Source of the DNA: Zobellia uliginosa
GTDB lineage: Bacteria > Bacteroidota > Bacteroidia > Flavobacteriales > Flavobacteriaceae
DNA length: 64,000 nucleotides
Reading direction: 5' to 3'
NCBI RefSeq assembly: GCF_900156625.1
Contig: NZ_FTOB01000002.1
Span: 366,275 to 430,274, forward strand
Part shown: in pieces, positions 44,135 to 63,437 of the stretch
Layout of the letters: each line of letters begins with the position of its first letter
How positions within the stretch are numbered: the stretch's first letter is position 1
Notes under the pieces: model-generated
What the model was told of the DNA's origin: nothing
Databases searched by the model: none
The model's input: the letters and a program-made list of their open reading frames with translations, nothing else
Position numbers and translations under genes: made by a program

Positions 44135-46129
44135 TTACGGCTTTGGGTTCTTTGATTTCTCCAGTTTAGCATCGTAAGCTTTCATTTTGATAATTAATTC
44201 CTTTGCTTTTTTCGGGTTTGTGGCTATAAGGTTGTTCTGTTCGGAAGCGTCTTGTTTTATATCGTATAATTTATCTACTAAATCATCACCTTTTAAATTT
44301 GCGGCATTCTTTATTCTATGGCCTTTGTATAAAAATTTATAATCACCATAGCGTATACCGTCAATTGTGCTAGTATTGGCGGAGTAGAAGTACATTTCTT
44401 TTCTAGGTGATTTGTTGGTCTTTCCACTGAAAAAATGTGACATGTCGTAACCATCAAACACTTTATTTTTAGGTAAGGAAATACCTGCGTAATTCGCTAT
44501 GGTGGGGAATAGATCCAATGAGGAGACTATCTCGTCACTAGTTGAATTGGCCTCTATTTCTCCCGGAGCCCAGATAATGGCGGGCACACGTTGGCCACCT
44601 TCATAGGTAGTAAATTTTCTGCCTTTAAGAGGTCTCGCAGACCCATGTCTGTTTGGGCCGTTGTCTGAGGTGAAAATAACCACCGTATTCTTATCTAAAC
44701 CGTTCTTTTTTAGGGTGTTTAGAATTTCGCCTACACTCCAGTCAATTTCTTGTAGCGCATCGTAATATGGGGTAGTCCCGCTACTTCCTTTAAATTTGTC
44801 ACCAACAAAGACGGGCACATGGGGAAATGAATGTGCCAAGTATAGGAAAAATGGTTTTTCTTTATTTTTTTCAATAAATGATATGGCTTCTTTGGTATAT
44901 CTTTCGGTAAGTGTTGTTTGATTGGTGGGGTATTCAATAATCTCATTGCCTCGCATTAGTGGAGGTTTGTTTTTAAGGTCTTCTTCAGGCACATTTGTTA
45001 GGTTTTTTTCTACCCTTCTGATATCTGAAAGCATCTGTTCTTGCGTGTAGTTATCGTTGAATAGTATATCTTTTGAAATATCAATACCTGGGGCAATAGA
45101 CATATTGTTACTATAGGGTATTCCATAATAACTGTCAAACCCTTGATTTAGGGGCAAATATTCTTTATCATGCCCTAAGTGCCATTTTCCCACTAATGCT
45201 GTTTGATACTCCTTTTCTTTTAGTAACTCTGCAATGGTTACCTCATCAGGGGGTAGTCCTCCTTCATTGGGTTTTGGAAATAATACTCGGGGAACACCAA
45301 CACGTTTAGGCATCCTACCCGTTAATAAAGCGGCTCTTGATGGAGAGCAGACGGATGAGGCCACATAGAAGCTAGTAAGTTTTAGACCTTCTTTGGCCAT
45401 ACGGTCAATATTTGGGGTCTGTAGGTTTCTAGAACCAAAACAGCTTAAATCTTCATACCCTTGATCATCGGTAAAGATGATAATAATGTTTTTTGACTGT
45501 GTTTCCATCTGTGTTGAGGAAAATGGGAAAGGAATGTGTGCCAATTTGGAATCGGCTTGTAGTTTCATGCATTCCCGATTTACACAATTGATATGGGGTT
45601 TGTTCTTTATGCCCTGGGGCAATTCTATGGAATAATCGAAGCCGAAGCGCTGGGTGACTTCTTCGGTCTTTGAGTAAGCATCGGGGGCACCGTTCCAAAC
45701 GCCGCCGAACCCCCATTTTCTGAAGGATGTGGTATTATAGTCCGCCTTTTTAGTATTACGGGATAGGGGTGTGGCATTAATGACGATACCGTCGTTGATC
45801 AACGGAGACCATACGCCCCAAGGGCTATTTGTGTTTCTGTAGGAGTAATTACCGGGCGTTATTGAATCTCGGGTAGGGGCACATAGGGAAGCGGGGGAGT
45901 GGGCATCGGAAAACCACATGCCTTGCCGAATGAGCTTGTTGCTATTGAGGGGTGGATCCAAGGAGGCTTTGCCCCTTCTTTCTTTGCGGTATAGACCAAT
46001 ATCGCCAAGACCGATATCATCGGCCATTGCGATTACAATATCAGGGTGGTCTTCGGCTTTCAGGAAACCGCTAATTCCCGCAAGGAAAACTAGAAAACAT
46101 AATTTTCGTATTAATGTAAATCGATTCAT
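44135..46129 (-). CDS. Chimeric double sulfatase: decayed N-terminal duplicate fused to an intact S1 sulfatase
   Basis: This 664-residue frame has two sulfatase heads. Residues 1-201 align without a gap to the sulfatase at 36253-37740 (about 49 differences), but with damaged active-site context: CAPTRDSITPGNYSYR instead of CAPTRYSMMTGNYPYR, so the conserved TG is lost. The similarity stops after HIPF (residue 201). At residue 202 a new sequence starts with what looks like the end of another signal peptide (FSSTQMETQ), followed by a complete sulfatase: FTDDQGYEDLSCFGS, C261-S-P-S-R265 with AALLTGRMPKR, KWHLGH, FTSDNGPNRHG. The first head still gives a signal peptide. The second (about 463 residues) is the probable active enzyme. 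Upstream bases to about 46168 also match the parent. Confidence 0.88.
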   Translation of the reverse strand: MNRFTLIRKLCFLVFLAGISGFLKAEDHPDIVIAMADDIGLGDIGLYRKERRGKASLDPPLNSNKLIRQGMWFSDAHSPASLCAPTRDSITPGNYSYRNTNSPWGVWSPLINDGIVINATPLSRNTKKADYNTTSFRKWGFGGVWNGAPDAYSKTEEVTQRFGFDYSIELPQGIKNKPHINCVNRECMKLQADSKLAHIPFPFSSTQMETQSKNIIIIFTDDQGYEDLSCFGSRNLQTPNIDRMAKEGLKLTSFYVASSVCSPSRAALLTGRMPKRVGVPRVLFPKPNEGGLPPDEVTIAELLKEKEYQTALVGKWHLGHDKEYLPLNQGFDSYYGIPYSNNMSIAPGIDISKDILFNDNYTQEQMLSDIRRVEKNLTNVPEEDLKNKPPLMRGNEIIEYPTNQTTLTERYTKEAISFIEKNKEKPFFLYLAHSFPHVPVFVGDKFKGSSGTTPYYDALQEIDWSVGEILNTLKKNGLDKNTVVIFTSDNGPNRHGSARPLKGRKFTTYEGGQRVPAIIWAPGEIEANSTSDEIVSSLDLFPTIANYAGISLPKNKVFDGYDMSHFFSGKTNKSPRKEMYFYSANTSTIDGIRYGDYKFLYKGHRIKNAANLKGDDLVDKLYDIKQDASEQNNLIATNPKKAKELIIKMKAYDAKLEKSKNPKP

Positions 46130-48204: not shown

Positions 48205-50685
48205 TTAACCTTTGTTCGCTGCAAGCTTAGAGAAAGCAATAATCAGTTTCCCTTCCTTTGTTTTTCCAAGGAGTTTTCCTGCAAAATTCATATCCGTAAT
48301 TCCATTTCCAGAGCCGTCAAATTCCACGATGAGGTCCTTTCCTTTTTTTTTGGTTTTTATAACTTTTGAGCCCTTTCCAAAATCGACTTCCTCTGAAGCG
48401 CCGAATCGTAAAGAGGTAAGGTCGATATCGTTTTGGGCGTCAAAATCCGCTTCTGAATGTATCAGGACCCTTATTTTTTTTGTTGATGGGCCTATCTTCT
48501 GTTTGTTCAAGAGTTGAATGCGTTTGTGTACGGTAAGGGGAACAATGATGTTTTTTGAACTGTGTTTATCCCTGGCCAAATCATCTGCTTTTGGGACGTC
48601 TATTACGGCAAGGGAAAGATGGGGGGCCCTCCCGTATTCATCTTGTAATATATGCGGGCGCTCTAGTTTGTACCAATGGGTTCGCGTACCGTCTTCATAG
48701 GAAGTATTGTCAGGCGTATAGGCCGTACCGGGGTTGAATTTCCAATGGATGCCGTCGGGTGAGCGCAGGTAAATGGCGCGATAGTCCCAAAATGCATTGA
48801 TGATCATATGGTACTGTACTTCATCTTTCCAAAGTACCGGGTCTTCGTAATTGGAGTTTCTATATTTTTCGGGAATAATGGGGTTGTATCGAATCTGGTC
48901 GGTCAGTACGGTATAGGGGCCGAGTGGGTCGTCTGTGACACTGCGCATCATTTCCCCGGCCTTGGTTACAAATAGAAAGCGGCCATCTTTTAACTGAACG
49001 CCTGACAAGTTGCGGTAATACCGGTATGAAAGTTTTTCGTCTTCATTGCTGCTTTTCCAATCGACGGTCATGGTTCCCAAACGCTTCCATGGGCCGTTCA
49101 TGGTCTTGGAGGTGAACAGGGTCGCTTCCCAATCTATCAAGGAATACAGCATATATGTGCCGTCGTTCAATAGAATTATATCGGGATTATGGCCTAGTCC
49201 ATTATGAAAACCATAGGCGGTATCTTCTTTTACTTTGTAGGGTCCGGTCGGTGTTTCGGAGATCACATGGGCCACCGTTGAGTTGGGCCATTCCCAATGG
49301 CCTTTGGTTGCGTTTGCGGGCCATCGGGTAACCAGCATATGGTATTTGTTGTCTTGGTCTTTTACCGGTCTGCCGCCCCAATAGCTCCACTCGGGATCTT
49401 CTATACCGTTATCAGGGTCACGGGGCAAAACGCCTTCTGCCCCCCAAAGATCGCTTCGTAGGTCTTTATGTATGGGTATAGGTAGAATAAGGTCGCTAAA
49501 CGAAGTGCCGGATACCGCTTTTACTTTGGCCCTTAGCAGTTGTGAGGCTTTACTCTTATTTCCTGAATGATCGTGGGCGAAGACCACATACGAGTTATAG
49601 TCCTCTTTTTTCGGAGTAAAATCAACATATTGGGTACTCGTAAGATCATGGGCAATCTGGCGAAGCTGATTGCCTTCGGAATCTCCTCTGTAAACCGAAT
49701 AATAGGCCACATCAACATCGATACTTTTGTTCCACTCCAGTTTAATTTCAGTGTCAAGGGCCTTAATTTTTAGGGCAGTTGGAGGTGCGGGTGCGTCACT
49801 GTCTATTTTTTTAAGGAGCACTTTGTTAGAACCCGCAGATTCTGAAGTGTCGAGGCGGGTTACGACATAGCTATATGACATACCGTTGATAAGGTCTGTA
49901 TCGGTAAAACTAAGATCAGCGGTCGTGGTCAGTTTGTTGTACGCTTCGCTTTTTCCTCTGCTTCGGTAAACCGAAAACTTGCTGTCTGAATGCGCTTTTT
50001 TATCCGTCCAATCCAAACGGATGCCGTCGGCCACTATTTTTCCCGAAAGGCTAGGACCTTCTTTTTCGGGAGCTTTTACGCTAAGGTTGACATAATCTAG
50101 AAAAACTTTAACGTCTTCACTGGAATAAAATACGACCCGAACACGGGGAGGTCCCGCCATTACGTCTTTTTGGGTTATGGTATAGGTGCCTGAAAAATGT
50201 TCAACGGTTTTGTCCGACCCTATGAGTTTTACTTTCTCGGCTAAGATGCGCTCTTGTTCACCGAAGAATAGGAGTAAGGAAAGGGAACCCTTGCTGATGT
50301 ATTCCAAATCGGCCCCAAGGCTCCAGTTCAATTCATCGCCCACCTTTAGGTCTTGATAACCAGGGGTGGTGTTCAAGGGCTTGGAATCGATATAGGCATA
50401 ATCGAAAGAGCTAAAATAGCGACCGGCGAAAAGACCCATAGAATGTCCTTCTTTTTGAGGTTCCATAGAGGGGGTCCAGAATGGGGATTGCAATCCGAGG
50501 CGCCAAGAACCGGACTGTATCAAATTAAAATCACCATCGTTTACATTGGGGTAGGGGGCGTTGTCCCCAAGGAGAACAATTTGTGCCGATAAGCCCAAAT
50601 GGCAAAAAAGAAGCAAAACAATTGACAGAAAAGTATATGCAGGGGTACTTTTTTCTTTTTTCCGATGGTGATTTAGATGTCTCAT
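48205..50685 (-). CDS. Multidomain GH43-like beta-propeller protein with N-terminal binding domain and two FN3 modules
   Basis: This 826-residue exported protein has a signal peptide ending near LGLSAQ (about 35). Residues about 36-205 form a galactose-binding-like sandwich (FNLIQSGSWRLGLQSPFW to VFLDYVNLSVKA). Two fibronectin-III modules follow (about 208-295 and 298-390), then a five-bladed propeller (about 400-700) with GGRPVKDQDNKYHMLVTRWP, GLGHNPDIILLNDGTYMLYS and NYEDPVLWKDEVQYHMIINAFWD. A short beta domain closes it. Blade patterns resemble the 384-residue protein at 2230-3384. This suggests a related GH43/GH117-clan hydrolase family that I cannot name. It lies 47 bp after the GH29 gene. 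Confidence 0.78.
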   Translation of the reverse strand: MRHLNHHRKKEKSTPAYTFLSIVLLLFCHLGLSAQIVLLGDNAPYPNVNDGDFNLIQSGSWRLGLQSPFWTPSMEPQKEGHSMGLFAGRYFSSFDYAYIDSKPLNTTPGYQDLKVGDELNWSLGADLEYISKGSLSLLLFFGEQERILAEKVKLIGSDKTVEHFSGTYTITQKDVMAGPPRVRVVFYSSEDVKVFLDYVNLSVKAPEKEGPSLSGKIVADGIRLDWTDKKAHSDSKFSVYRSRGKSEAYNKLTTTADLSFTDTDLINGMSYSYVVTRLDTSESAGSNKVLLKKIDSDAPAPPTALKIKALDTEIKLEWNKSIDVDVAYYSVYRGDSEGNQLRQIAHDLTSTQYVDFTPKKEDYNSYVVFAHDHSGNKSKASQLLRAKVKAVSGTSFSDLILPIPIHKDLRSDLWGAEGVLPRDPDNGIEDPEWSYWGGRPVKDQDNKYHMLVTRWPANATKGHWEWPNSTVAHVISETPTGPYKVKEDTAYGFHNGLGHNPDIILLNDGTYMLYSLIDWEATLFTSKTMNGPWKRLGTMTVDWKSSNEDEKLSYRYYRNLSGVQLKDGRFLFVTKAGEMMRSVTDDPLGPYTVLTDQIRYNPIIPEKYRNSNYEDPVLWKDEVQYHMIINAFWDYRAIYLRSPDGIHWKFNPGTAYTPDNTSYEDGTRTHWYKLERPHILQDEYGRAPHLSLAVIDVPKADDLARDKHSSKNIIVPLTVHKRIQLLNKQKIGPSTKKIRVLIHSEADFDAQNDIDLTSLRFGASEEVDFGKGSKVIKTKKKGKDLIVEFDGSGNGITDMNFAGKLLGKTKEGKLIIAFSKLAANKG

Positions 50686-50732: not shown

Positions 50733-52265
50733 TTAACGGCGCTCAATTTTTAGCACATAGGCAAAATTGCAGGGTTTTTGTTTCGGAAATTGAACGACAA
50801 GCCCTTCCACTTTCTGTTCCCATTTGATGCTTTCATTGCATCCCAACATTGAAATATTTTTGATGTCTCCGGGATAGAGTTTCCCCTTGCTGCCTAATGT
50901 TCTAATGGTAATTTGTTTCCCTGGCCATTCCATACAGATAGCGTACAAATTTTTTCCGTTTTGGGTAAACCGAATATCTTCTGAAGTGTATTTAGGAATC
51001 AATTCCCCCCGGTTTTTTCCTTGTCCGTGATGGCCGGGATTGGTTACTTCCGTAGGTCCTTCGCCATAAAATATCCAGGGCATGGTGTTGTAGATGGCTT
51101 CCCCGTTTATTTTCAACCAATCACCCATGGCATATAGTTCCTTTTTGGTTTCCTCTGGAAAACTACCATCTGCTTTTGGGGGCACGTTTAGAAGCATTCT
51201 GCCATTCTTACTGGTCATATCAATTAACATATCAATCAATGTTCCAGCCTCTTTAACCTTGTTTGCCGGATTATAAAACCAAGGACTAGGCCATTCAAAG
51301 TGGCGTTGCATATTAATATCCGCCATCCATGGGTCGTATTGCATTCCCAGCAGGTTCCCATCTTCGATATCGCGAATTCCTATTCCCGGTGGAATATCAT
51401 GGGTCTTATAAAATACTTCTACTTCTTTGCCTAATTCTAGTCCCTTATTGAAATAATCACGGATCAATTTTTGCTGATAACTTTCCGGTACACTGATCAG
51501 TTCATTATCACCTTCCGGTAACAGGCGGCCACGGTCTGTGTACTTTTTTAATTCGCCTTTCACGGTTCCCCCAAAGCCGGTATCAAACCAAATCATGTCC
51601 GGTTCGTATTTGTTGATAGCTTCTGAAATACGGTCAAACCAAGCCTGGAAAATGACTTCTGCTGTTCGGCCTTTATTTGCAGTGGCGTATTTTGAATTGT
51701 CTTCGTAGGGGTCGAGATAAGTTGAGTTTTCCTTGGATAATCGGCCCCACATACGGCTCCAAAAATCACCCGTATGGAAAGAGGATATTATAGGCATATT
51801 ACGTTTACGGAGTTCTTTTGCCAGGCTTCCGTATATGTCTACTTTAGGTCCTTTATTTAGGGAATTCCAATCGGTAATATCGCTATCCCAATTTACGACC
51901 CCGCTACCGTGCCATGCTACGGGCCCGCCGAACTGGGCGCCTGCATCCTGTATCAAATCGACCCATTTTTTAGCATCGAAATTTTCGCCTTTCCAAGCAT
52001 CAACAGCTTCAAGGACGGTCATTTCGGGGTTTTTTGAAGCTACTTGTACCGTCTGTGGCCCCCAGTGGAAATAGATTCCGAATTTCATTCCATAAAGCCA
52101 ATCGGGCGTAGTGTGCTTTTGCAAAGACGACCAATCCGCTTGATAGGGTGTAGCGGATTTTTCGTTTTTTTTAGGTGCGTTTTGGGAAAAGCCAATTACC
52201 GATGTTACGAAAAAAAGAAGGCAGGTGCATAATTTAAAAGGGAAAGAGGGGGCTAAAGGTTTCAT
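50733..52265 (-). CDS. GH29 family glycosidase (alpha-L-fucosidase-like, possibly alpha-L-galactosidase)
   Basis: The start is chosen at the ATG 52263-52265 because it gives a clean signal peptide (MKPLAPSFPFKLCTCLLFFVTS, then IGFSQ) and overlaps the upstream stop as ATGA (52262-52265). The open frame continues 24 codons further without signal features. The 510-residue protein has MKFGIYFHWGPQ, nucleophile D228 in MIWFDTGFGG, and MLIDMTSKNGRMLLNVPPKADGSFP. As in its paralogue at 34830-36209, the fucosidase KHHDGF region is replaced (AWHGSGVVNWDSD). It probably acts on alpha-linked L-galactose or a related sugar. It is coupled to the DUF4038 enzyme gene. Confidence 0.87.
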   Translation of the reverse strand: MKPLAPSFPFKLCTCLLFFVTSVIGFSQNAPKKNEKSATPYQADWSSLQKHTTPDWLYGMKFGIYFHWGPQTVQVASKNPEMTVLEAVDAWKGENFDAKKWVDLIQDAGAQFGGPVAWHGSGVVNWDSDITDWNSLNKGPKVDIYGSLAKELRKRNMPIISSFHTGDFWSRMWGRLSKENSTYLDPYEDNSKYATANKGRTAEVIFQAWFDRISEAINKYEPDMIWFDTGFGGTVKGELKKYTDRGRLLPEGDNELISVPESYQQKLIRDYFNKGLELGKEVEVFYKTHDIPPGIGIRDIEDGNLLGMQYDPWMADINMQRHFEWPSPWFYNPANKVKEAGTLIDMLIDMTSKNGRMLLNVPPKADGSFPEETKKELYAMGDWLKINGEAIYNTMPWIFYGEGPTEVTNPGHHGQGKNRGELIPKYTSEDIRFTQNGKNLYAICMEWPGKQITIRTLGSKGKLYPGDIKNISMLGCNESIKWEQKVEGLVVQFPKQKPCNFAYVLKIERR

Positions 52266-53920
52266 TTGTTTTTCGGTTTTAAGTTGCGAATGATAAGAAT
52301 GGCATCGGCCTCGTACCGCCAGGGGCGGTAATCCCAAAAACCAAGTTCCTTCATATTGTATTTTTCTTCGGGAGTCAATTCACCCGTAAGGGTATTGAAC
52401 CATTGTTGGGTGGCGTTTTCGTAGTCGAACTCTTTTGAAATTTGAACCTTGGCCGAGGTGTAGTGATTTTCCTTTGGGGTATATATTAAAATGATGCCAT
52501 CCTTTTCATTGGTCAAATTGTATCCGCTACCATTGTATCTGGCATTAGGTTCAAAATTCTCGAAAGGTGCGGAATCAAATAGTTTTCGCATGTGGGTGAA
52601 ATATTCGAAATGGGGTTTTTTAAAATCATCAGGTTGTTCAAAAGGGTTGTGTATTAGTGCGTTCCATGAGGACCCTTGCCAATAATAGGTGGTGTATCCG
52701 CCTGCGAACAGACACATATAGTTTCTTCGTAAACATACTTCGGCATTTACGTAAGCTCCCGGAAAGACCACGTAGGGCGATTCTTCATATCCCCCGTGTT
52801 CGATATTGAAAATAGGTTTATTGGGGAAGTCGTTTCGGGCATTCAACATATTCTGGTACAGGGTGTGTTGCCAGTTTTGCATCGAAATAAAATCGACTTC
52901 ATCGGCATGGTTTCTACAGAAGCCATAATCATGGACGGATACCAGCCTATCGTAAGAATCAAGGTTTCTAGTTCGTTCAATACGTTCTGAAATATAGGCG
53001 GCAGTGGCCCTTGTTTTGTGCAGGGCTTCCTTTGAAACGTCCCAGATGATATTCGGAAAAGCCTGGTAGCGTTTTATGATATAGTCATAATACCTATTGT
53101 CGGCCTCAGATTCCATTTCCGGCCACGATACCAGTTTGTTCCAGACGTAGATCATAAGGTGACTAACGATTTCTTGATCGTGCATTTCCGAGATGACTTT
53201 GTCAAAATGTTTAAAAAAGTCAATGTTTAGCGAACTGTAGTCCGGATTGGAATTAGACCCCAGAAAAGGAAAAATATCTTCACGCCCCCCATATTCGTGC
53301 TCGGGATGCTCGGCCAGACGTTCGTCTTTTGGCCAAGATACGTCGTATGAATACACGTTCATGACCACCTGATTGAAACGGTATTCGTTTAATAAGGACA
53401 AGAGGTGCTTGGTCTTGGCCATGTCTTCTTTCCCGTAATCGAGAGCAAAGAGCCAATCGCATTCAAAAGCCAGGTTAAAGTAATGTGAACCGTCTTCATA
53501 GAACAAATGCCGTGGGTTGTCTTTGTTCAGTACAATGCCCCCATGACGCTCGGTTTTTTGATTTTTGACCACGGTAATCTTTCCTTTTTTTCCGTTCAAA
53601 GCCTTTAGTTCGGAAGTTATTATATAGGATTTATCGCCCATGATGCCACTGGAGTATCGTAACACCCATGTGCCCTTGCCATTGTAAAATAGGGGAATCT
53701 GCTGTGTTTGTTTTCCATCTGTCACTTGGGCGGTGGCCACAAGCTCAAAAGGGGCCTTTGTTTTTTTGTTTACAGGGAAGACCACATCGATAACCTCCCA
53801 CTGCTGGCATTGTATACCGGTACTTGGTTTTGGGTCGGTATAGGTTTTAGACTGCGATATGCCCGTGATAGGAAGCAGTAACACATAGCAGAAAGCAAAA
53901 AGGTTTCTAAATAGCTTCAT
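52262..53920 (-). CDS. Exported DUF5060/DUF4038-type glycosidase
   Basis: The start is taken at 53918-53920, giving signal peptide MKLFRNLFAFCYVLLLPITG ending at ISQ; the frame upstream (31 codons) has no such signal. The 552-residue protein has a front beta domain (QCQQWEVIDVVFPVNKKTKAPF, GTWVLRYSSG) typical of DUF5060. A TIM barrel of the DUF4038 type follows (ERHGGIVLNKDNPRHLFYEDG, VVMNVYSYDVSWP). Candidate catalytic Glu residues occur in IIWDVSKEALHK and PIFNIEHGGYEESP. Relatives include apiosidase-type GH140 enzymes, but the substrate here is not known. It begins 20 bp after the BNR protein gene and overlaps the GH29 gene by 4 bp. Confidence 0.83.
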   Translation of the reverse strand: MKLFRNLFAFCYVLLLPITGISQSKTYTDPKPSTGIQCQQWEVIDVVFPVNKKTKAPFELVATAQVTDGKQTQQIPLFYNGKGTWVLRYSSGIMGDKSYIITSELKALNGKKGKITVVKNQKTERHGGIVLNKDNPRHLFYEDGSHYFNLAFECDWLFALDYGKEDMAKTKHLLSLLNEYRFNQVVMNVYSYDVSWPKDERLAEHPEHEYGGREDIFPFLGSNSNPDYSSLNIDFFKHFDKVISEMHDQEIVSHLMIYVWNKLVSWPEMESEADNRYYDYIIKRYQAFPNIIWDVSKEALHKTRATAAYISERIERTRNLDSYDRLVSVHDYGFCRNHADEVDFISMQNWQHTLYQNMLNARNDFPNKPIFNIEHGGYEESPYVVFPGAYVNAEVCLRRNYMCLFAGGYTTYYWQGSSWNALIHNPFEQPDDFKKPHFEYFTHMRKLFDSAPFENFEPNARYNGSGYNLTNEKDGIILIYTPKENHYTSAKVQISKEFDYENATQQWFNTLTGELTPEEKYNMKELGFWDYRPWRYEADAILIIRNLKPKNK

Positions 53921-53940: not shown

Positions 53941-56595
53941 TTATTGGGCCCATCCGTCTGTGCTGCCGTTCAAGTAGCTTATGAACCAACCGCTGCCCCA
54001 TCCGGCACACCAAAGCACATCTTTGTTATAGGGGTCGGGTTTAACATCAACCATCTTGTCAGGTTGGCCCAGACCTTTATTGATTTTTTTCCAGCTTTTA
54101 CCGTCATCTGTGCTGAGGTAAATACCCGGATTCATGAATTTACCGGACATGCTTACCTGTTGTCCCGCAACACTGAGAACGATAAGTTTCGGATCAAGGG
54201 GAGAGGTTTCGGCCTGCCAGACAAAAGGAGCCTTAAATATTTGTTGCCAGGTTTTACCGTTGTCCGTGCTGCGCCAAACTCCGCCTTCTTCATAAGTGCC
54301 ACTACGTTGTCCGGTAGAAATGAGTATATCTTTGGTATTGCGATCTATGAAAACATTGTTCACCGAATTTATAACGGATGGAATGGTCATCTTTACCCAA
54401 TTGCTCCCTTTGTCCTTGGAAATATAGAGCCCCCCGTTTTTATCGTTCAGGGCGGCATAAAGGGTTTCCGGTTGATCAGGATGCATAATGATACGCCTAA
54501 CACTTGCATTTTTATGAAAACCGGTATTGCTCAATTCCCAAGTATGGCCTCCGTCAAAGGATCGATAGAAACCATAGCCGCCTTTGGTGAGTTTTTCAGG
54601 TTTTCCTCCGCCTATTTCCGAAATTTTTCGCGAAGTCGAGCAGAAATACATGGTATCGGGGCTATTCGGGTCGATCAATAGGGAGTTCTGCGGGGCCAGA
54701 CCTTGCCATGAGTTATTGTCGGCTTCAAAAATCGTAGCGATATTCGTCCAAGTTTTTCCGCCATCGGTAGTCTTGCGCAATTTACCGCGGTGTTCTTGGC
54801 GCCATGACAAAATGAAAATAGTATTTGGATCATTTGGATGCACGGCTACGGTAGATATGGAGTGGGCCCCATGATTACCGCTATGGTCATGCACCTGTCC
54901 TTCAATTTGCTCTACGGCTACGGCTTGCTTATCGGGCCACCCTTCTAAATCCGTAGTTTGCCATAATCCGTGCTCGCCGCTACAGAGCAATCTTCTGTTT
55001 TTAATACCTGTTTCTAAAAGCATAAACCTTCCCGGAAGATTACTGCCCCCTCGGCCGATCCATTTGTTACTGCCCGGTGAGGTCTCATAATCATCTATTT
55101 GCTGCCAGGTCATGCCCTTGTCCGTTGACCGTAGGGTTTGTTGGTCTATACCGATATAAAGGTTTCCATTAGGGGCTATTGACATCATTCGGTTGCCTGA
55201 GGAACCCGCAATCCCGTCCATATAGGTCTGTAGGTGGGCAAACTCGATATTGGTTCCGGTGGGGTTGTTCCTGCTTTTCCAATAGTCCAGATCCTTGTTT
55301 CCTTTCCAATACGCACCGTATCTGGCACAGGTAATCCAGGTTTTTCCGCCATCTAAGCTTCGCCATACGTCACCTGGGCCGAAGGTAAAGTCGTGTTTGC
55401 GATTGTAGCTTACATAGATTTCGTCTTTGTTCAAGGGGTTGACCACCAATCGATTGAAAACCGGAAGTGTTTTTGAGGGCAAGGTGGTGAACTTTTTCTT
55501 CGATTCCGACTTTGAGGTTCCGAACCAGTATCCCATGGTTTTATGGAAACGGTCTACTTCTGCATTGGAGTGGAGGGCGGTCATATCAAAATAGAGATTA
55601 CCGGTAATATTTTTCCAGCTTTTACCGCCATCGGTACTTTTAAACACGCCTCCTTTTGCGCTTACCGTATTTCCTTTGTCTTCATAAACCGTTTGGTCTA
55701 CCAAATACAGAACAAATTCATTGGTTCTTGGGTCGTAGTAGGAGGTCAGGTCACGGGGAAGGTTGTTGGGGAGTCCCTTACCACCTTTTTTCCAAGAAAG
55801 TCCGCCATCGGTACTGCGCATCAATCCGAAGTTGGTAGCCATAACGATGTGTCGATTGTTCTTCGGGTTTACAATAATTTTTCCCACATCGGTCTTTTCG
55901 TGAAGGCCCTTAGTTATTTTTTTCCATGTTCGGCCTTTGTCGGTAGACTTATAGATACAGCCATAGGCTGCGTATTTGAAGAAAATGCCGTTGGGGTTGG
56001 CGGCCGATCTGTGGTTGCTCTTTACGTTCCAAAAATCACCTGCGCCCGCATACCAGATATTGTCGTCGGTCGGGTCTACGGCCAGTTCGCTCAAGCGTGT
56101 GCCCTCTTGTTCGTAATACCAACCTTTTTCAAATGATTTGGGGTCGTTGGGATCTATGTTCACGTCTTTATGGCTTCCGCCCAATTCCGTAGTCTTTTTC
56201 CATGTTCGGCCCCGGTCAAGGGTTTCAAAGACCCAACCGTTCCAATCGATGGCCATACCGTAGTCGGGGTTTTGTAGTGAAAATTCAATGTCGAGGACCC
56301 GTTTCATATCGTGGCCCAATCCATCGTGATCTTTTAGCGAATGCCAAGATTTTCCATTGTCCCATGTTCCGTAACTCACATGCATATCGGGGCCCATGAA
56401 CATCACATTGGCATCGGTGGGGTGGTTCCAGAATTCTTCGCAATAGCCCGACATTCCCGGACCGAAATTCTTCCATTCAACGGAAGGGTCCGATGCTACT
56501 TTCTCCGTTTTGATCTGTTGAAAAAAGTCTTTTGTCTGGGCTTGAAGTGCTGTAGTAAGACATGCCAATACTAGAAATAAAGTCGTTTTTTTCAT
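53941..56595 (-). CDS. Large BNR/Asp-box double beta-propeller protein (GH74/sortilin-like)
   Basis: This 884-residue exported protein has a signal peptide ending near ALQAQ (about 20). It holds about 11 Asp-box motifs S/T-x-D-x-G-x-T/S-W spread over its length, for example STDKGRTW, STDGGKSW, TTDGGKTW, STDNGKTW and STDDGKSW. This pattern is typical of the two seven-bladed propellers of GH74 or sortilin/Vps10-like proteins. Residues near the N-terminus (DPSVEWKNFGPGMSG) are shared with the 874-residue paralogue at 57639-60263. A glycoside hydrolase or a glycan-binding surface protein is possible; I cannot identify catalytic residues. It sits between the DUF4038 and GH43-like genes (20 and 37 bp). 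Confidence 0.85.
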   Translation of the reverse strand: MKKTTLFLVLACLTTALQAQTKDFFQQIKTEKVASDPSVEWKNFGPGMSGYCEEFWNHPTDANVMFMGPDMHVSYGTWDNGKSWHSLKDHDGLGHDMKRVLDIEFSLQNPDYGMAIDWNGWVFETLDRGRTWKKTTELGGSHKDVNIDPNDPKSFEKGWYYEQEGTRLSELAVDPTDDNIWYAGAGDFWNVKSNHRSAANPNGIFFKYAAYGCIYKSTDKGRTWKKITKGLHEKTDVGKIIVNPKNNRHIVMATNFGLMRSTDGGLSWKKGGKGLPNNLPRDLTSYYDPRTNEFVLYLVDQTVYEDKGNTVSAKGGVFKSTDGGKSWKNITGNLYFDMTALHSNAEVDRFHKTMGYWFGTSKSESKKKFTTLPSKTLPVFNRLVVNPLNKDEIYVSYNRKHDFTFGPGDVWRSLDGGKTWITCARYGAYWKGNKDLDYWKSRNNPTGTNIEFAHLQTYMDGIAGSSGNRMMSIAPNGNLYIGIDQQTLRSTDKGMTWQQIDDYETSPGSNKWIGRGGSNLPGRFMLLETGIKNRRLLCSGEHGLWQTTDLEGWPDKQAVAVEQIEGQVHDHSGNHGAHSISTVAVHPNDPNTIFILSWRQEHRGKLRKTTDGGKTWTNIATIFEADNNSWQGLAPQNSLLIDPNSPDTMYFCSTSRKISEIGGGKPEKLTKGGYGFYRSFDGGHTWELSNTGFHKNASVRRIIMHPDQPETLYAALNDKNGGLYISKDKGSNWVKMTIPSVINSVNNVFIDRNTKDILISTGQRSGTYEEGGVWRSTDNGKTWQQIFKAPFVWQAETSPLDPKLIVLSVAGQQVSMSGKFMNPGIYLSTDDGKSWKKINKGLGQPDKMVDVKPDPYNKDVLWCAGWGSGWFISYLNGSTDGWAQ

Positions 56596-56632
56596 AGTTC
56601 AATGCTCTAATTTGCAACTATTTATAGTTCTG

Positions 56633-57616
56633 TTATTTTTTGATCCATTTCAATTTATCGATACTCACCCCTCTGTAAGGCCATTCAACACTTGATATAT
56701 ACCATTGCCCATCTTCGTCCTGAAAAATCTCGGGGGCATGTGCCTTTAATACGGTGATTTCATTTTCTTGGTCAACCCCAAAATCGGTCAGGTCATTTGA
56801 CTGGTAGACATAGGCTTTGTGGGTATAGGCGCCTTGAATATCCTTACCGTCCCATCCGCCTTCCCAAGCACAGACAAAGAGGTAAAAGGAATTGTCATGA
56901 AATAATAGACTGGGAGACTCAGGGTCGAATTGATTTGTCTTTAGGATGGTTTTGGGCTTACTCCAGTGTATCAAATCCTTAGAAGTCACCATACGGACAC
57001 TTTTGATGGAACAGTAGGTCAGGTAATAGGTGCCATTGTATAAAAGTATATTTGGGTCACGGGCTCCATCTGGGTCTGAAAAGAGTTCTCCTTTTGGTTC
57101 CCAATCATAGAGATTATCGGAAACAGCCAAACGTATGGGGCTATGGCCGTATACCATTTGAAAGCGTCCGTCTTTCTTAACGATATATGGGGCGTGGTTT
57201 GCGGGTATTTCACCGGGGCGATCTTTAGGGGTGAGTATCTTGGGAAGGTCGTTATAATGGTTTTCATTTAGGGTTTCCTTGAAATTTGTAGCCCGTGACA
57301 CGGCGTGAAAGGAAGCATATTCACCTTCATGTATACCCTTGTTGAGCGGTTTGGTTTCCACGAGGGGGTGGGTAATGCCGAATATGTGCCATAAGCCGTC
57401 ATCGCCCTTTACAAAGGTGTGGTCGTTGGGCACCCATTCGTCGTACCATTTTCCCTCTTTCAGGTTCGGGGTATCGGGACCGAAAAAATAGTCTCCGTCC
57501 GCTTTGTACACGCGTACGTATTGATCGGCCTGTTCGGGAACCAAAAGCTCTGTTTGGGCGTTTAGGGTGTACGTTATACCGCATAGGGCCGAGAGTAAAA
57601 AGGAAAGGTTTTTCAT
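56633..57616 (-). CDS. GH43-like five-bladed beta-propeller glycosidase
   Basis: This 327-residue exported protein has a signal peptide ending near YTLNAQ (about 21). A single propeller follows: GDDGLWHIFGITHP, NHAPYIVKKDGRFQMVYGHSP, GARDPNILLYNGTYYLTYC, PESPSLLFHDNSFYLFVCAWEGG and APEIFQDEDGQWYISS. Asp/Glu residues in these blades (DGARDPN, FDPESP, APEIF) suit GH43-type active sites. The protein is close in size to minimal GH43 enzymes. It lies between the two BNR-propeller genes (37 and 22 bp), so the three genes may form a functional set. Substrate not evident. Confidence 0.82.
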   Translation of the reverse strand: MKNLSFLLSALCGITYTLNAQTELLVPEQADQYVRVYKADGDYFFGPDTPNLKEGKWYDEWVPNDHTFVKGDDGLWHIFGITHPLVETKPLNKGIHEGEYASFHAVSRATNFKETLNENHYNDLPKILTPKDRPGEIPANHAPYIVKKDGRFQMVYGHSPIRLAVSDNLYDWEPKGELFSDPDGARDPNILLYNGTYYLTYCSIKSVRMVTSKDLIHWSKPKTILKTNQFDPESPSLLFHDNSFYLFVCAWEGGWDGKDIQGAYTHKAYVYQSNDLTDFGVDQENEITVLKAHAPEIFQDEDGQWYISSVEWPYRGVSIDKLKWIKK

Positions 57617-57638
57617 GCTTCTTGGGTATTTTGCTTAG

Positions 57639-60263
57639 TTATTGATATATGGTCTTGTTCGGTTTGGGGTGCTGCGCTACGTACCATCCACTACCTCGTG
57701 TTGAAGCGTAAAACTTGCCCGGGGTATAGTTGTCTATGGCAATATCGTTGATGCGATCGCTCTGGCCGTTGCCCTTATTTATTTTTGACCATGACTTTCC
57801 TCCATCTTGTGAAAGGTAGGTGCCTGCATTTTTTGTGCCGATAGAGACATTGCCCAAGGTAGAGACCAAAATGGTGTTCGGGTTGTAGTAGGCCGTTTCA
57901 ATTCGGTTGGTCCAAGGGTGGTCAAAAATCCGTTTCCAGTTACGAAGCCCGTCGTTACTGACCCAAAGCCCTCCGGCATTTGGTTTTCCTCTTTTGCTAC
58001 CTGCGGTAATGTAAGCTTTTCCGTTTCTAGAGAAATGGATGTCGTTAATGCCTTGATCGCCCGATATTTTTTCGGTGGAGGAGACCTTACTCCAATACTT
58101 ACCCTTGTCAATCGATTTAAAGAGTCCCCCTCCCTTGTTCTGTATGGCTACGTAAAGCGTGTTGGGGTCCTCGGGGTCGAAGGCGATTTTGCTGGCGTCG
58201 CGTGAATCGGGCAGGCCTCTATTGGCTTCTTGCCATGTTTTTCCACCGTCGTAAGTTGCGTGTACCCCAAAACCGGTTACCGAGTTCCCCACCCATTCGA
58301 GGTCCGTAGAACGCCTAGGTACCACAAAATACATGTTATTGGGATTGTTGGGGTCTATGATAAGATGGTTTTGATGAACGCTTTGATCCCCACTATGGGG
58401 TTGTGTTTCCCATTTGGGGATCGCTATGCCATGCTCTTTCCACGTTTTTCCATTGTCAATAGACTTTAGAAATTTACCTTTTGCCGCCTGTCTAAAGAAC
58501 AAAGCGTAATGGATCATGGTATCTTTAGGGTGTATGGCATACCAGCTTAACGAGGTTTCATTGTCGAGAAAATTATGTGACTCCGCAGCTTGTGCCCCTG
58601 GGCGTACCTTAGCTCCTTCGTTGTTGGTAATCCATAGACTGTTTTCGCCGGCCATACAGAATACCTTGTGCTTTATTTCGGGATGTTGGTAAAAACCATG
58701 GCCTGGAAGGTTACTGTTTCCCGCACCGACATAACTTTCCGTACCGGGAGTGGTATACTCGTCATCGATATCTACCCAAGTTTCGCCTTTGTCGTAGCTC
58801 ATAAGCGATATTTTGGCCATTTGGGTGTGAAGTACGGTTCCGTCTGCATTCCACCGTACAAAATTAGAACCTTTACGTTCGTAAAAATCCCGGTCTACCC
58901 AATCCTTCAAATAGCGGAGGGAAATATTGGTTTCCATAGGGTTGCCCCGGTCGGTCCAATAGGTGTAGTCTTTAGAACCTTTTTTCCATGCTTTTCCGTT
59001 TCGCAGGGCAACATGCCATGTCTTCCCCCCATCTTTGCTGCGCCATAGCTGCCCGGGTTTAAAATTGTTTCGCGAGGCATTGGAATATTCGTTGTTCAGG
59101 TAAATGTTGTTGGCATCGTTGGGGTCTACCGCAATGGTGTTGAAGCGAATGGTAATGGCCGAGGGCATCTCAGGATATTTCTTTTTGAATTCGCCGTCTT
59201 TCATACCAAAAACATAGGCGGCACAGTGTACATAGCTCTTTTTAATATCGGCACTGTTTTGAAATTGACGCATGTCTAGGGCTAGGTTGCCTTGCAGTTT
59301 TTGCCAAGTTTCCCCGCGGTCTACACTCTTGAAGATTCCCCCTTTGTCATCGGTCAATGTCTTCCCGTCGGGTTTCCACATAGGGTTGGAGATAACGTAG
59401 AGCGTAAGGGTGTTGGTACTAGGGTCGTAATGGTGTGCCATGGCCCGCATTACGTCATAATCGAAGCCCTTGGTCTTCTGTGTCCAGCTTTTTGCCCCAT
59501 CGGTACTTTTGTAAAAACCGTAGTTGGTACTGGCGTAGACCATATTCGAATTTTTTGGGTCTACCAATAGGGTTTCGAATTGGGTGTTGGGATGAAACCC
59601 CTTGTTCATGAGCTTCCATGTTTTTCCCTTGTCGGTACTTTTCCATAGTTTGTTGAGGCTGGGCTTATGTTCTCTTGAACCGTGGGGTTGGCTGTTCGGA
59701 AAGAGCATTCTTCCCAAATGTCGCATTTCGCCACCTCCTGCATACCAAATGGCATCATTTTTCGGGTCTACCGCTACACAGGACACATATTTGCCCTCGA
59801 ATACCGGATGGTTCAGGTTCTGCCATGATCGCCCGCGGTCATGGGTAACAAAGATGCCCTTGTTCTTATCATCGCTACAAAAACCGAAATCGGGATTTTG
59901 ACGTGAAAAATCGATACTGAACAACTGCATGGGGCCTCGCTGGCCTTCCCTGTAACCCGTAGCATCTTCATCGAGCATGGTACTGTAGGTTTTTCCTTGG
60001 TCGAAAGAAACGTAGGAATTTCCCATATTCGGACTGATATAAAGGGAGTTGGGGTCGGTCGGGTGCCAAAAGGCACATTTGTTGTTACCGCTCATTCCCG
60101 GGCCGAATTGCTGCCACACCACCGAAGGGTCGGAGGCTAGGTCTTGGGTCTTTAGGCGTTTAAAAAAGTCCTTGTTTCCATCCGTATTTTGCCCGTAGGT
60201 CGATATACCGTATAGAACCGTGAATAACAATGCTATCTTGGGGGCTATCATCTTTTTATTCAT
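57639..60263 (-). CDS. Large BNR/Asp-box double beta-propeller protein (paralogue)
   Basis: This 874-residue exported protein has a signal peptide ending near STYGQ (about 25) and about a dozen Asp boxes (THDRGRSW, STDKGKTW, SVDRGETW, SKDGGKTW, SIDNGKTW, TYDGGKTW, SQDGGKSW). It shares length, N-terminal DPSVVWQQFGPGMSG and overall order with the BNR protein at 53941-56595, so the pair arose by duplication. Some blades differ (STDGAKSW, SNDGLRNW). It may be a GH74-like hydrolase or a carbohydrate-binding protein. It follows the GH16 gene by 33 bp, so it is probably co-expressed with a backbone-cutting enzyme. Confidence 0.85.
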   Translation of the reverse strand: MNKKMIAPKIALLFTVLYGISTYGQNTDGNKDFFKRLKTQDLASDPSVVWQQFGPGMSGNNKCAFWHPTDPNSLYISPNMGNSYVSFDQGKTYSTMLDEDATGYREGQRGPMQLFSIDFSRQNPDFGFCSDDKNKGIFVTHDRGRSWQNLNHPVFEGKYVSCVAVDPKNDAIWYAGGGEMRHLGRMLFPNSQPHGSREHKPSLNKLWKSTDKGKTWKLMNKGFHPNTQFETLLVDPKNSNMVYASTNYGFYKSTDGAKSWTQKTKGFDYDVMRAMAHHYDPSTNTLTLYVISNPMWKPDGKTLTDDKGGIFKSVDRGETWQKLQGNLALDMRQFQNSADIKKSYVHCAAYVFGMKDGEFKKKYPEMPSAITIRFNTIAVDPNDANNIYLNNEYSNASRNNFKPGQLWRSKDGGKTWHVALRNGKAWKKGSKDYTYWTDRGNPMETNISLRYLKDWVDRDFYERKGSNFVRWNADGTVLHTQMAKISLMSYDKGETWVDIDDEYTTPGTESYVGAGNSNLPGHGFYQHPEIKHKVFCMAGENSLWITNNEGAKVRPGAQAAESHNFLDNETSLSWYAIHPKDTMIHYALFFRQAAKGKFLKSIDNGKTWKEHGIAIPKWETQPHSGDQSVHQNHLIIDPNNPNNMYFVVPRRSTDLEWVGNSVTGFGVHATYDGGKTWQEANRGLPDSRDASKIAFDPEDPNTLYVAIQNKGGGLFKSIDKGKYWSKVSSTEKISGDQGINDIHFSRNGKAYITAGSKRGKPNAGGLWVSNDGLRNWKRIFDHPWTNRIETAYYNPNTILVSTLGNVSIGTKNAGTYLSQDGGKSWSKINKGNGQSDRINDIAIDNYTPGKFYASTRGSGWYVAQHPKPNKTIYQ

Positions 60264-60296: not shown

Positions 60297-61568
60297 TTAT
60301 TTGGTCAAATGGATATAGACCGTACTTTCGTCAAGGCTACTTTTTTTATTCCCTTTTAGCGGGCGTATATGGGCCGAGAGCCTATAAGGGGAGCCGATCG
60401 GTAATTTTTGATCCAATAGCAAGGTGTACTCGAGGTTGGCATACCCGGCATAGGCCGTGAGAACCGCTTCCTCTATTTTTTTTCCTTCGTTGTCAAAGAG
60501 TATAAGTGCTATTTCGCGGTCTTCGTTCGCTTGATATGATAGGGGGATTTCTAGGGATTTTGACCGTTTGTGTTCTATGGTCGCACTAGGAAACGTTACG
60601 TTTTCATGATATAGTTTTAGGGTCGGGTCTTTTTCTACTTCGGAATTAGGGTCGTTTACATCGACCAATCGGTAGGCCCTGACCCAATCGTAATAAACTA
60701 TGTTTTTGGTCGGGTCCGCTAGCTCTTCGGCATTAGGAAGTTCGATCCAGGGAAAAGGATAGGTTTCGTTTACCAGACGCATGTACATAGGCTGGTCAAA
60801 AGGTTTCTTCTTTACCTTGTCATAGAATTTTTGGTGTTTCGGTGGCCTGTTGTTATAGTAATAGCTAGCGGTGCTTTCATCGCGCCACCATCCTCCATAA
60901 ACATTAAAGTCTTCTGAGGTAAGCTTGGCGTCTTCGAACTTTACTTGCGGTGCCCTGTGGTCATGTTTTTTTCCGTTACAATCGGTATACCAAAAATGGG
61001 CATTGGAATGCATGCCACTGGCAAAATAACTTCCACTGAAATCGCCTTCGCGTCCGATAGATTCATGAATGTCCCATTCCAAACCATAGCGGTCACAATC
61101 GTTAGGCCCTTTGAAATTATTGGAGCTGGAAAACCAAAAGGTAGTAGACATCGTTGTGGCCGCGGCTTTGACGCGACATTCGTAATACCCGAATTTCGTT
61201 GCTTTTTTTGATACTACTGCGGCACCGGCTATGTTAAAGGTAATGTCTTTGCCGTAGGCATGTACAACAGTATCTTTTTCTAATTTTTTTCCTTCCATTT
61301 TTAAAAATCCGTCTCCTACCGAAACCTGTGATGACATAAAAAGACCAGGGGCCCTGCCGATCCAGGTCGGGTGGTGGTCAAGCCATTTGGTAGTGTCGAG
61401 TTCGGTACCGTTGAACTCATCGGAAAAGTCGGGGTTTAACACCCATCGCTTGCCCATAGGTGGTTGGGGGGGACCCAGGCGTGTTTCTTGGTTATCGTAG
61501 TTGGGGGGCTCTTGCGGGAATACTATGCTGTGTGATAGTAATGCGATTAGAAAAAAACGTCTGATCAT
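60297..61568 (-). CDS. GH16 family endo-galactanase (porphyranase/agarase type)
   Basis: This 423-residue exported protein has a signal peptide ending near SIVFPQ (about 19). The GH16 jelly roll begins at WVLNPDFSDEFNGTELDTTKW (about 42). The catalytic motif E-x-D-x-x-E is E164-W-D166-I-H-E169 in YGLEWDIHESIG, with E164 as nucleophile and E169 as acid/base. Aromatic residues of the glycan cleft are plentiful (GYYECRV, FWFSSSN, YGGWWRDES). The domain ends near DWVRAYRLVDV (about 300); a C-terminal beta domain of about 110 residues follows. In a marine flavobacterial PUL with GH117, GH29 and GH2, activity on agar or porphyran is the best inference. It would release the oligosaccharides used by the other enzymes. 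Confidence 0.88.
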   Translation of the reverse strand: MIRRFFLIALLSHSIVFPQEPPNYDNQETRLGPPQPPMGKRWVLNPDFSDEFNGTELDTTKWLDHHPTWIGRAPGLFMSSQVSVGDGFLKMEGKKLEKDTVVHAYGKDITFNIAGAAVVSKKATKFGYYECRVKAAATTMSTTFWFSSSNNFKGPNDCDRYGLEWDIHESIGREGDFSGSYFASGMHSNAHFWYTDCNGKKHDHRAPQVKFEDAKLTSEDFNVYGGWWRDESTASYYYNNRPPKHQKFYDKVKKKPFDQPMYMRLVNETYPFPWIELPNAEELADPTKNIVYYDWVRAYRLVDVNDPNSEVEKDPTLKLYHENVTFPSATIEHKRSKSLEIPLSYQANEDREIALILFDNEGKKIEEAVLTAYAGYANLEYTLLLDQKLPIGSPYRLSAHIRPLKGNKKSSLDESTVYIHLTK

Positions 61569-61628: not shown

Positions 61629-63437
61629 CTATAGGGTAACCTTTACTTCTTTTTTATTTTTCTTTTTGGCTTCGATATCGAAAAGGCGTTTCATCTTTTC
61701 GCCTTCACCAATTTCGATGGTGTAGCGACCAGGATACATGACCGTTGGTTTATAGGTCGTTCCTTTTATTCTTAAGGAGGAAATCACTTCACTTGTATAA
61801 TAGTCCTTGACCGTGATTACCTGGTCTGGTATCGATATTTTTAGGGTGGGGAGATAGTAACCGTCCTTAATCAAAAAATTATCGGTCTGGTCGAAGGTTA
61901 TCGGCCAATCATTATAGGGTTTGCTATCTTTTGCAAACATGTCTACGTTTCTGGGCCAACATTCGTAGGTGATTTTCCGTGTGGTTTTGTTAAATCGGAT
62001 AATACCGTAGCCTGAGGCCCTGCCATTAAGCAGGTTTTCCGTAGGGGTGTTGTCTTTGTGTGTCGGGTTGGCTATCGCATGTACCGTAATTTTGTTGTGG
62101 AAGCCGTCTAGGTATTCGCCTGTATAATCAGAGGCGCCAGGTTTCTGGTTTTTTCCAGGGTGGTCGGGTTTCCACCAGCGTAACCAGAAGTTTGATGAGG
62201 CGGGTACGGCAAAAGAGTATCCGGCGTTGTTCCAGTCTTCTATGCCATGCTGAACTACGGAACCCAAATGTTGGTCGCCGGCAATCATACAGGAAAAACT
62301 TTTTCGAATGACGCTTAAGGCCCTATTTCTTCCTGCTTGAGGCCAACCATTTGAGTCTACACTATAGCGCTGTTTTTTTTCAAGGGTAGGGGTGTGCGTA
62401 GTGACATTGGCAAATATAGTCTGAGAGAGTACAGCCTTCATTTCGGCATCTTTCCAGTCCGTGGTCCAGTCTTCTAAAAAGTCAAGTTGTCTTTGTCCTA
62501 AAAGGGTCGCTCCGGGCACATTCATTTCCCGAGTATCTTTAAACCCTCTTCTCTTGAGTATACGATCTGGACCGGATTTAAATTTTCGATCTTCAATAAT
62601 GGCAAAACTGATGCCGCCCCATTTTAAATCGGTATAGTACACCCCAATGCCTTGCTCTATTGGCGTTGGGTCATAAGGGTCGGGTAAGTGTGCTGTCTGA
62701 GCTCTTTCTACTTCTTTTATATAAGCAACGGGCATATAATAGCCCCCTTCGGTACCATCCCTACTATTAATTTTTTTGCCGCCATTGCCCCAAAAATTTC
62801 CTTGTCCGATATCGTGGTCATCGGGTATGGTAATCGTAGGGGTATTTCTAATGATATCGCCGAAAACTTCCCCGAATTTCAGCCAATAGCTGTAATGTTG
62901 ACTGTGGTCGTATACTTGATCTCCGGCAAAGAAAAGTAAATCGGGTTTTAACCTTTCCAAATTTGAAATAATATCATCAGCAGGGCCTTGTCCTCCGTGT
63001 CTTTCGTAAATCGACCAACATGAAAATGCGGCCATGATGACTTCATCTTTGTTAATCGGGTTCTGTTGAATGATACCCTTGTAGAAGGATTTGTTGTTAT
63101 AGGCGATCCTGTATTCCTTTTCTTGGGTATCGTCCCAATTTTCTATACGAAATAGGGCGGTATACCCAGGATATTCAATCCATGATTTTTGAACAGTTTT
63201 CCACCCATCGGCTTCACGAATCTGAAGTTCGGCGGAAAAGGGCTCATAATCTTTTATAGGATAAAATTGGGCCGTAAGCTTTAAGGTATTTTCATGAACG
63301 GTATAGAGTGCAAAACAAATTTTGCCTTTTTTCGAGCGAATGTTTTTTGACGAGGTCTCGGGCGTCTTTTGTGCCTGTATACCAATCGATAGAAACACAA
63401 ATTGGCTAAAAATAAATAGATGTAATAGGTTTTTCAT
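61629..63437 (-). CDS. PhoD-like metallophosphatase
   Basis: This 602-residue exported protein has a signal peptide ending near IGIQAQ (about 23). The PhoD core is visible: AAFSCWSIYERHGG, PDLLFFAGDQVYDH, TITIPDDHDIGQGNFWG, LSQTIFANVTTHTP and FSCMIAGDQHLGSVVQHGIEDW, giving the Asp/His ligands of the metal centre. PhoD enzymes hydrolyse phosphate mono- and diesters. Here it lies between a sulfatase (25-bp gap) and the GH16 gene (60 bp), an unusual place for a phosphate enzyme. It may remove phosphate esters or diesters from the algal wall or have drifted to another ester. The C-terminus forms a beta domain (about 510-602). Confidence 0.87.
   Translation of the reverse strand: MKNLLHLFIFSQFVFLSIGIQAQKTPETSSKNIRSKKGKICFALYTVHENTLKLTAQFYPIKDYEPFSAELQIREADGWKTVQKSWIEYPGYTALFRIENWDDTQEKEYRIAYNNKSFYKGIIQQNPINKDEVIMAAFSCWSIYERHGGQGPADDIISNLERLKPDLLFFAGDQVYDHSQHYSYWLKFGEVFGDIIRNTPTITIPDDHDIGQGNFWGNGGKKINSRDGTEGGYYMPVAYIKEVERAQTAHLPDPYDPTPIEQGIGVYYTDLKWGGISFAIIEDRKFKSGPDRILKRRGFKDTREMNVPGATLLGQRQLDFLEDWTTDWKDAEMKAVLSQTIFANVTTHTPTLEKKQRYSVDSNGWPQAGRNRALSVIRKSFSCMIAGDQHLGSVVQHGIEDWNNAGYSFAVPASSNFWLRWWKPDHPGKNQKPGASDYTGEYLDGFHNKITVHAIANPTHKDNTPTENLLNGRASGYGIIRFNKTTRKITYECWPRNVDMFAKDSKPYNDWPITFDQTDNFLIKDGYYLPTLKISIPDQVITVKDYYTSEVISSLRIKGTTYKPTVMYPGRYTIEIGEGEKMKRLFDIEAKKKNKKEVKVTL

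Follow-up and report, generated by a model that had tools for sequence, protein, structure and literature searches.

Described Asp-box propellers and the Zobellia locus

The GH74 xyloglucanases (PDB 6p2m, 2cn3, 1sqj and 6mgj) are built from a tandem of Asp-box propellers with seven blades each; in the second propeller the Asp-boxes occupy blades 2-6 (PMC2716378). The catalytic pair of PoXEG74 is D70 and Asp477 (PMC10317168), the first of which is numbered D60 in a PDB title. Asp-box repeats are also present in the Sortilin/VPS10 domain (PF15902), a single 10-bladed propeller, and in GH33 sialidases and similar BNR proteins, of which GH33 is a six-bladed single propeller (PMC2716378 for both). 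The GH150 lambda-carrageenases are, like the proteins considered here, large and associated with sulfated red-algal galactan; they are set apart by their description alone, as a fused three-domain protein (PMC12549532).

The locus under study lies in a 64,000-nucleotide stretch (the window) of the 5.3 Mb genome of Zobellia uliginosa; among its relatives in the genus are Z. barbeyronii, Z. uliginosa and Z. amurskyensis. Two open reading frames of 884 and 874 residues, here called P1 and P2, enclose a 327-residue gene, from which they are separated by 37 and 22 bp, on the minus strand (Table 1), exactly as the earlier note had described them. The two large proteins are paralogues with 36% identity over the full length (E 4e-171), and the motif DPSV.W..FGPGMSG that they were said to share is real. 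Each contains 12 Asp-boxes by a relaxed pattern, in agreement with the 11-12 counted previously, and 9 (P1) and 7 (P2) by a strict one; shuffled sequences averaged 0.2 matches and never exceeded 3, so that the numbers observed are far above chance. The 327-residue protein exceeds the Pfam GH43 cut-off, which bears out its earlier description as GH43-like.

These genes belong to a closely spaced run on one strand, in the order PhoD-like, GH16, P2, GH43-like, P1 and Apiosidase-like, the last having its likely start at 53920, 20 bp from P1. The wider window encodes S1 sulfatases, two GH29, three GH2, GH97 and GH43/GH117-like enzymes, SusC and SusD. The PhoD-like gene (61629-63437, minus strand) lies between GH16 and the next sulfatase, as it does in several Zobellia genomes, and is absent from that position in one relative (G006). 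In Algibacter and Ochrovirga, too, it is found close to relatives of P1.

Table 1. Features of the P1/P2 locus, in positions of the window
Feature	Positions	Strand	Description
DUF5060/Apiosidase-like gene	52262..53920	-	directly downstream of P1; recurs beside P1/P2 relatives
P1	53941..56595	-	884 aa, clade A; candidate inverting glycoside hydrolase with a predicted GH74-like pair of seven-bladed propellers
P1 codon E541	54973..54975	-	putative equivalent of second GH74 catalytic Asp, from blade order
P1 codon D70	56386..56388	-	aligned with first GH74 catalytic Asp
P1 shared motif DPSVEWKNFGPGMSG	56446..56490	-	residues 36-50
GH43-like gene	56633..57616	-	327 aa; presumed clan-F residues kept in Zobellia orthologues
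P2	57639..60263	-	874-aa paralogue of P1; clade B; Asn replaces first GH74 acid
P2 codon E540	58644..58646	-	counterpart of P1 E541
P2 codon N79	60027..60029	-	stands where P1 has D70
P2 shared motif DPSVVWQQFGPGMSG	60087..60131	-	residues 45-59
GH16	60297..61568	-	PorD (ZGAL_3628) orthologue by gene order

We put at about 55% the joint reading that P1 is a GH74-like galactan hydrolase and that P2 is its altered sister, acting either as a non-hydrolytic binder or through a different chemistry.

Predicted fold and candidate catalytic residues

The AlphaFold2 model of P1 (pLDDT 92.3, 63 aligned relatives) has 14 blades by DSSP arranged as two propellers, as in GH74, and its best 25 matches in the PDB are all GH74 structures, the first being 6p2m (E 1e-29, 17% identity, TM 0.73 when normalised to the target). 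The model of P2 is less certain (pLDDT 78.8, 13 sequences only), and its first 25 matches are likewise GH74 only. A profile of the family matched one of GH74, made from GH74 proteins taken from plasmid records, with P 100 and E 1e-46. Sequence search found no solved structure closer than GH74, and NCBIfam offered a sub-threshold model only. A scan of viral contigs for relatives returned two weak matches, and a viral fold library search gave nothing informative. The predicted 14 blades in two propellers differ from the single 10-bladed propeller of sortilin, in spite of a Pfam match to that domain above cut-off, and from the six-bladed GH33, to which profile matches are weak; the sortilin and sialidase readings suggested by Pfam were dropped after the fold search.

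The earlier note saw no obvious catalytic site in either protein and proposed a comparison with the catalytic aspartates of GH74, which yields a candidate acid pair in P1 and the loss of the first acid in P2. The first GH74 catalytic Asp lies within ARTDIGGAY (residue 35 of OXG-RCBH, counted along the aligned chain), and it is in this fragment only that 6mgl, titled a D60A mutant, scores below 6mgj, and 2cn3 below 2cn2. In the N-terminal profile alignment, D70 of P1 aligns with this Asp without gaps. The second Asp lies within GD[IL]GGF, the fragment in which the D465N chain 2ebs scores below 1sqj. The alignment of the middle segment of P1 to GH74 (hhalign) is ambiguous, and the register of the second Asp is not fixed by sequence. 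In the P1 model, blade 8 has no Asp-box and is followed by five blades with one; it carries CSGEHGLW, with E541 in the B-C loop, which is where GH74 has its second Asp. Blade order and Asp-box pattern in the model, rather than superposition, thus point to E541 as the probable equivalent of the second Asp. D484 (GIDQQ), at first matched to it by eye, was rejected because clade A does not conserve it and clade B has Ala there; blade order and Asp-box pattern likewise favour E541. The other invariant acids D91 and D501 could be the catalytic residues instead of D70 and E541.

P1 and P2 nevertheless should not be filed under GH74: they share only about 16% identity with it (13-17% to all GH74 structures), their second acid is a different one, and the first is missing from P2. 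While the first Asp is retained in P1 and throughout clade A, it is replaced by Asn in P2 and clade B; the second position is acidic in both proteins and is occupied by Glu instead of Asp in all members, with the register set by blade order. The family also has long insertions, the alignment occupying about 900 columns against GH74 chains of about 700 residues, and its context is that of red-algal galactan as compared to xyloglucan for GH74.

The acids D70 and E541, together with the predicted GH74-like fold, make it probable that P1 cleaves glycosides with inversion and belongs to a GH74-related family of its own. P1 is most likely such a candidate enzyme acting on a sulfated red-algal galactan, and the family appears to be undescribed; a search of openly accessible papers found no description of these proteins. 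The new hydrolase family on sulfated galactans that the earlier note had envisaged thus holds for P1 as a reasoned proposal, built on predicted fold, retained acids, conservation and context, and on a search that turned up no characterised family closer to it. The lyase function offered beside it is unsupported, since the invariant carboxylates suit a glycosidase and uronic acids are generally absent from galactans of the agar type.

In the mechanism proposed, P1 would be exported, probably to the periplasm, and its two seven-bladed Asp-box propellers would surround a cleft in which D70 and E541 serve as the two catalytic Asp of GH74 and cut a glycosidic bond with inversion. The adjoining GH16, GH43-like, GH29, GH2 and GH117-like enzymes and sulfatases would act as its partners. 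The N-termini of both P1 and P2 resemble export signals, judged by eye and a simple pattern only. A simple pattern detected no type IX tail in either protein, as compared to 22 of 76 relatives in clade A and 7 of 26 in clade B; a few relatives have lipoprotein-like signals. A periplasmic location of both proteins is the simplest reading. If P1 is a hydrolase, it would found a GH74-related family for red-algal galactan spanning several bacterial phyla, and would supply a missing activity alongside the porphyranases PorD/PorE, in a locus for which the substrate is still debated.

The Asp/Asn split between clades and the role of P2

Relatives are found in marine Bacteroidota, Kiritimatiellota, Planctomycetota, an Alteromonadaceae genome and Shewanella. 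Residues were surveyed over 106 aligned rows, one of them a duplicate (about 105 relatives). At the D70 position, Asp is present in each of the 74 rows of clade A covering the site and in 3/3 rows of clade C, a small and divergent third clade, and Asn in all 27 rows of clade B, whereas the E541 position is Glu in every row of all clades. H58, D91, R425, W430, N449, D501, R599 and Q600 are invariant or nearly so in A and B. Jointly with D70, clade B has switched Y51 to N, E53 to K, R469 to N, Q485 to K and H542 to N. Clade B has a single origin with full support, and the Asn is most simply derived because clade C also has Asp, a reading limited by the midpoint root, at which long branches meet. 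The rewriting of the other presumed cleft residues, which are yet strictly conserved in clade B, indicates a site kept in a different state and not one in decay. The invariant Asp/Asn split of sister clades offers a natural experiment on the loss or replacement of a single catalytic acid in an enzyme of two propellers.

As one GH74 catalytic acid is replaced in P2, its sequence suggests that the chemistry has been lost or changed. P2 might have lost hydrolysis and bind the same class of glycan, or might cut another linkage through an altered chemistry. The first of these, in which P1 is the enzyme and P2 a non-catalytic pseudo-enzyme for capturing or holding chains of sulfated galactan, falls somewhat short of even odds. 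The missing acid in 27/27 clade B members agrees with it, as does the frequent position of clade B genes just downstream of SusC/SusD (Flammeovirga, Flavobacterium algicola), the usual spot for surface glycan-binding proteins. Against these stand the retention of E540 and of strictly conserved, rewritten presumed cleft residues, the independent loss of P1 and P2 in Zobellia, and, in P2 itself, the absence of a type IX tail and of a clear lipoprotein signal (by eye and pattern). The surface glycan-binding role once suggested for both proteins may apply to P2; the invariant acid pair of P1 speaks against it there. It is rather unlikely, though conceivable, that clade B is a second enzyme type on the same scaffold, in which Asn79, in place of the GH74 Asp, and E540 would cut sulfated galactan by a hydrolysis that the amide or a sulfate assists, or by some other reaction. 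In that case P1 and P2 would represent two new CAZy-type families, each handling its own linkage or sulfation state of a single red-algal galactan.

P1 and P2 are not an obligate pair, because one or the other is absent in other Zobellia: Z. barbeyronii has P1 without P2, and two Zobellia genomes have P2 without P1. A heteromeric P1/P2 pair was rejected for the same reason. In a relative Z. uliginosa genome, a DUF6786 gene and a GH117-like gene stand between the GH43-like gene and P2.

Gene neighbourhood and probable substrate

By raw counts, the neighbours within 10 kb of 69 relatives include S1 sulfatases in 50 cases, GH2 in 27 and GH29 in 18; GH86, PorD/PorE-like GH16 or GH117 are found at 24 of the 69, as compared to 0/69 for carrageenan GH127 or GH129-like genes. 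Among 301 Flavobacteriaceae genomes the family is present in 11, accompanied by GH86 in 7 and by the carrageenan GH127 DagA in 10 (Fisher p 1e-12 for DagA), and its genome co-occurrence with carrageenan GH127 is at least as strong as that with GH86. The neighbouring and co-occurring genes indicate a red-algal-galactan family; the neighbourhood favours agar-type substrates, while co-occurrence at the genome level does not separate agar from carrageenan.

In the Zobellia relative G006 the order is GH29, Apiosidase-like, P1, GH43-like, P2, GH16, two sulfatases and two GH28-sized genes. This fits the order in the main text of a published study, ZGAL_3628 (PorD), sulfatases ZGAL_3629 and 3630, and GH28 genes ZGAL_3631 and 3632 (PMC5698469), from which P1, the GH43-like gene and P2 would correspond to ZGAL_3625, 3626 and 3627. 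According to the same text, ZGAL_3629-3638 are strongly induced by kappa- and iota-carrageenan; ZGAL_3625-3628 are not among the main-text table entries consulted. ZGAL_3638 is described there as having no carrageenan specificity, and the authors of the study suggested that a different sulfated galactan is the target, for example sulfated agars (PMC5698469).

The most likely substrate is accordingly an agar/porphyran-type oligosaccharide of sulfated red-algal galactan. A carrageenan-type or hybrid galactan as the substrate of P1 and P2 instead is doubtful: DagA in 10/11 family-positive genomes and the carrageenan induction of the adjoining genes speak for it, but DagA may merely mark red-algal specialists, no carrageenan GH127/GH129-like gene lies within 10 kb of the 69 relatives while agar-type markers are near 24, and the specificity described for ZGAL_3638 points the other way. 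It is improbable that both proteins are non-catalytic glycan-binding or scaffold propellers like the VPS10/sortilin binding proteins, as the best Pfam match (Sortilin-Vps10), the existence of non-enzymatic Asp-box propellers (PMC2716378) and the unrelated Asp-box proteins encoded in many Bacteroidota genomes might suggest, since fold and profile matches put GH74 far above sortilin and clade A conserves both acid positions.

Other genes of the window deserve mention. An 826-aa protein (48205-50685, minus strand) has no Pfam match even at E 1 and is kept in Zobellia and in Labilibacter/Lutibacter loci beside P1/P2 relatives. The open reading frame at 44135-46129 (minus strand) is a chimeric sulfatase, in which about 210 residues that duplicate, in diverged form and with 71% identity, the N-terminal part of another sulfatase (36253-37740) are fused ahead of a complete S1 sulfatase; its orthologues in other Zobellia have 474 aa and no such extension. 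A CstA-type transporter and a DUF7133/cytochrome c protein (23647-25089 and 31216-33477, minus strand) lie inside the sugar-degradation cluster, and two FAD oxidoreductases of the same Pfam family are encoded at 13177-15477 and 26228-28021.
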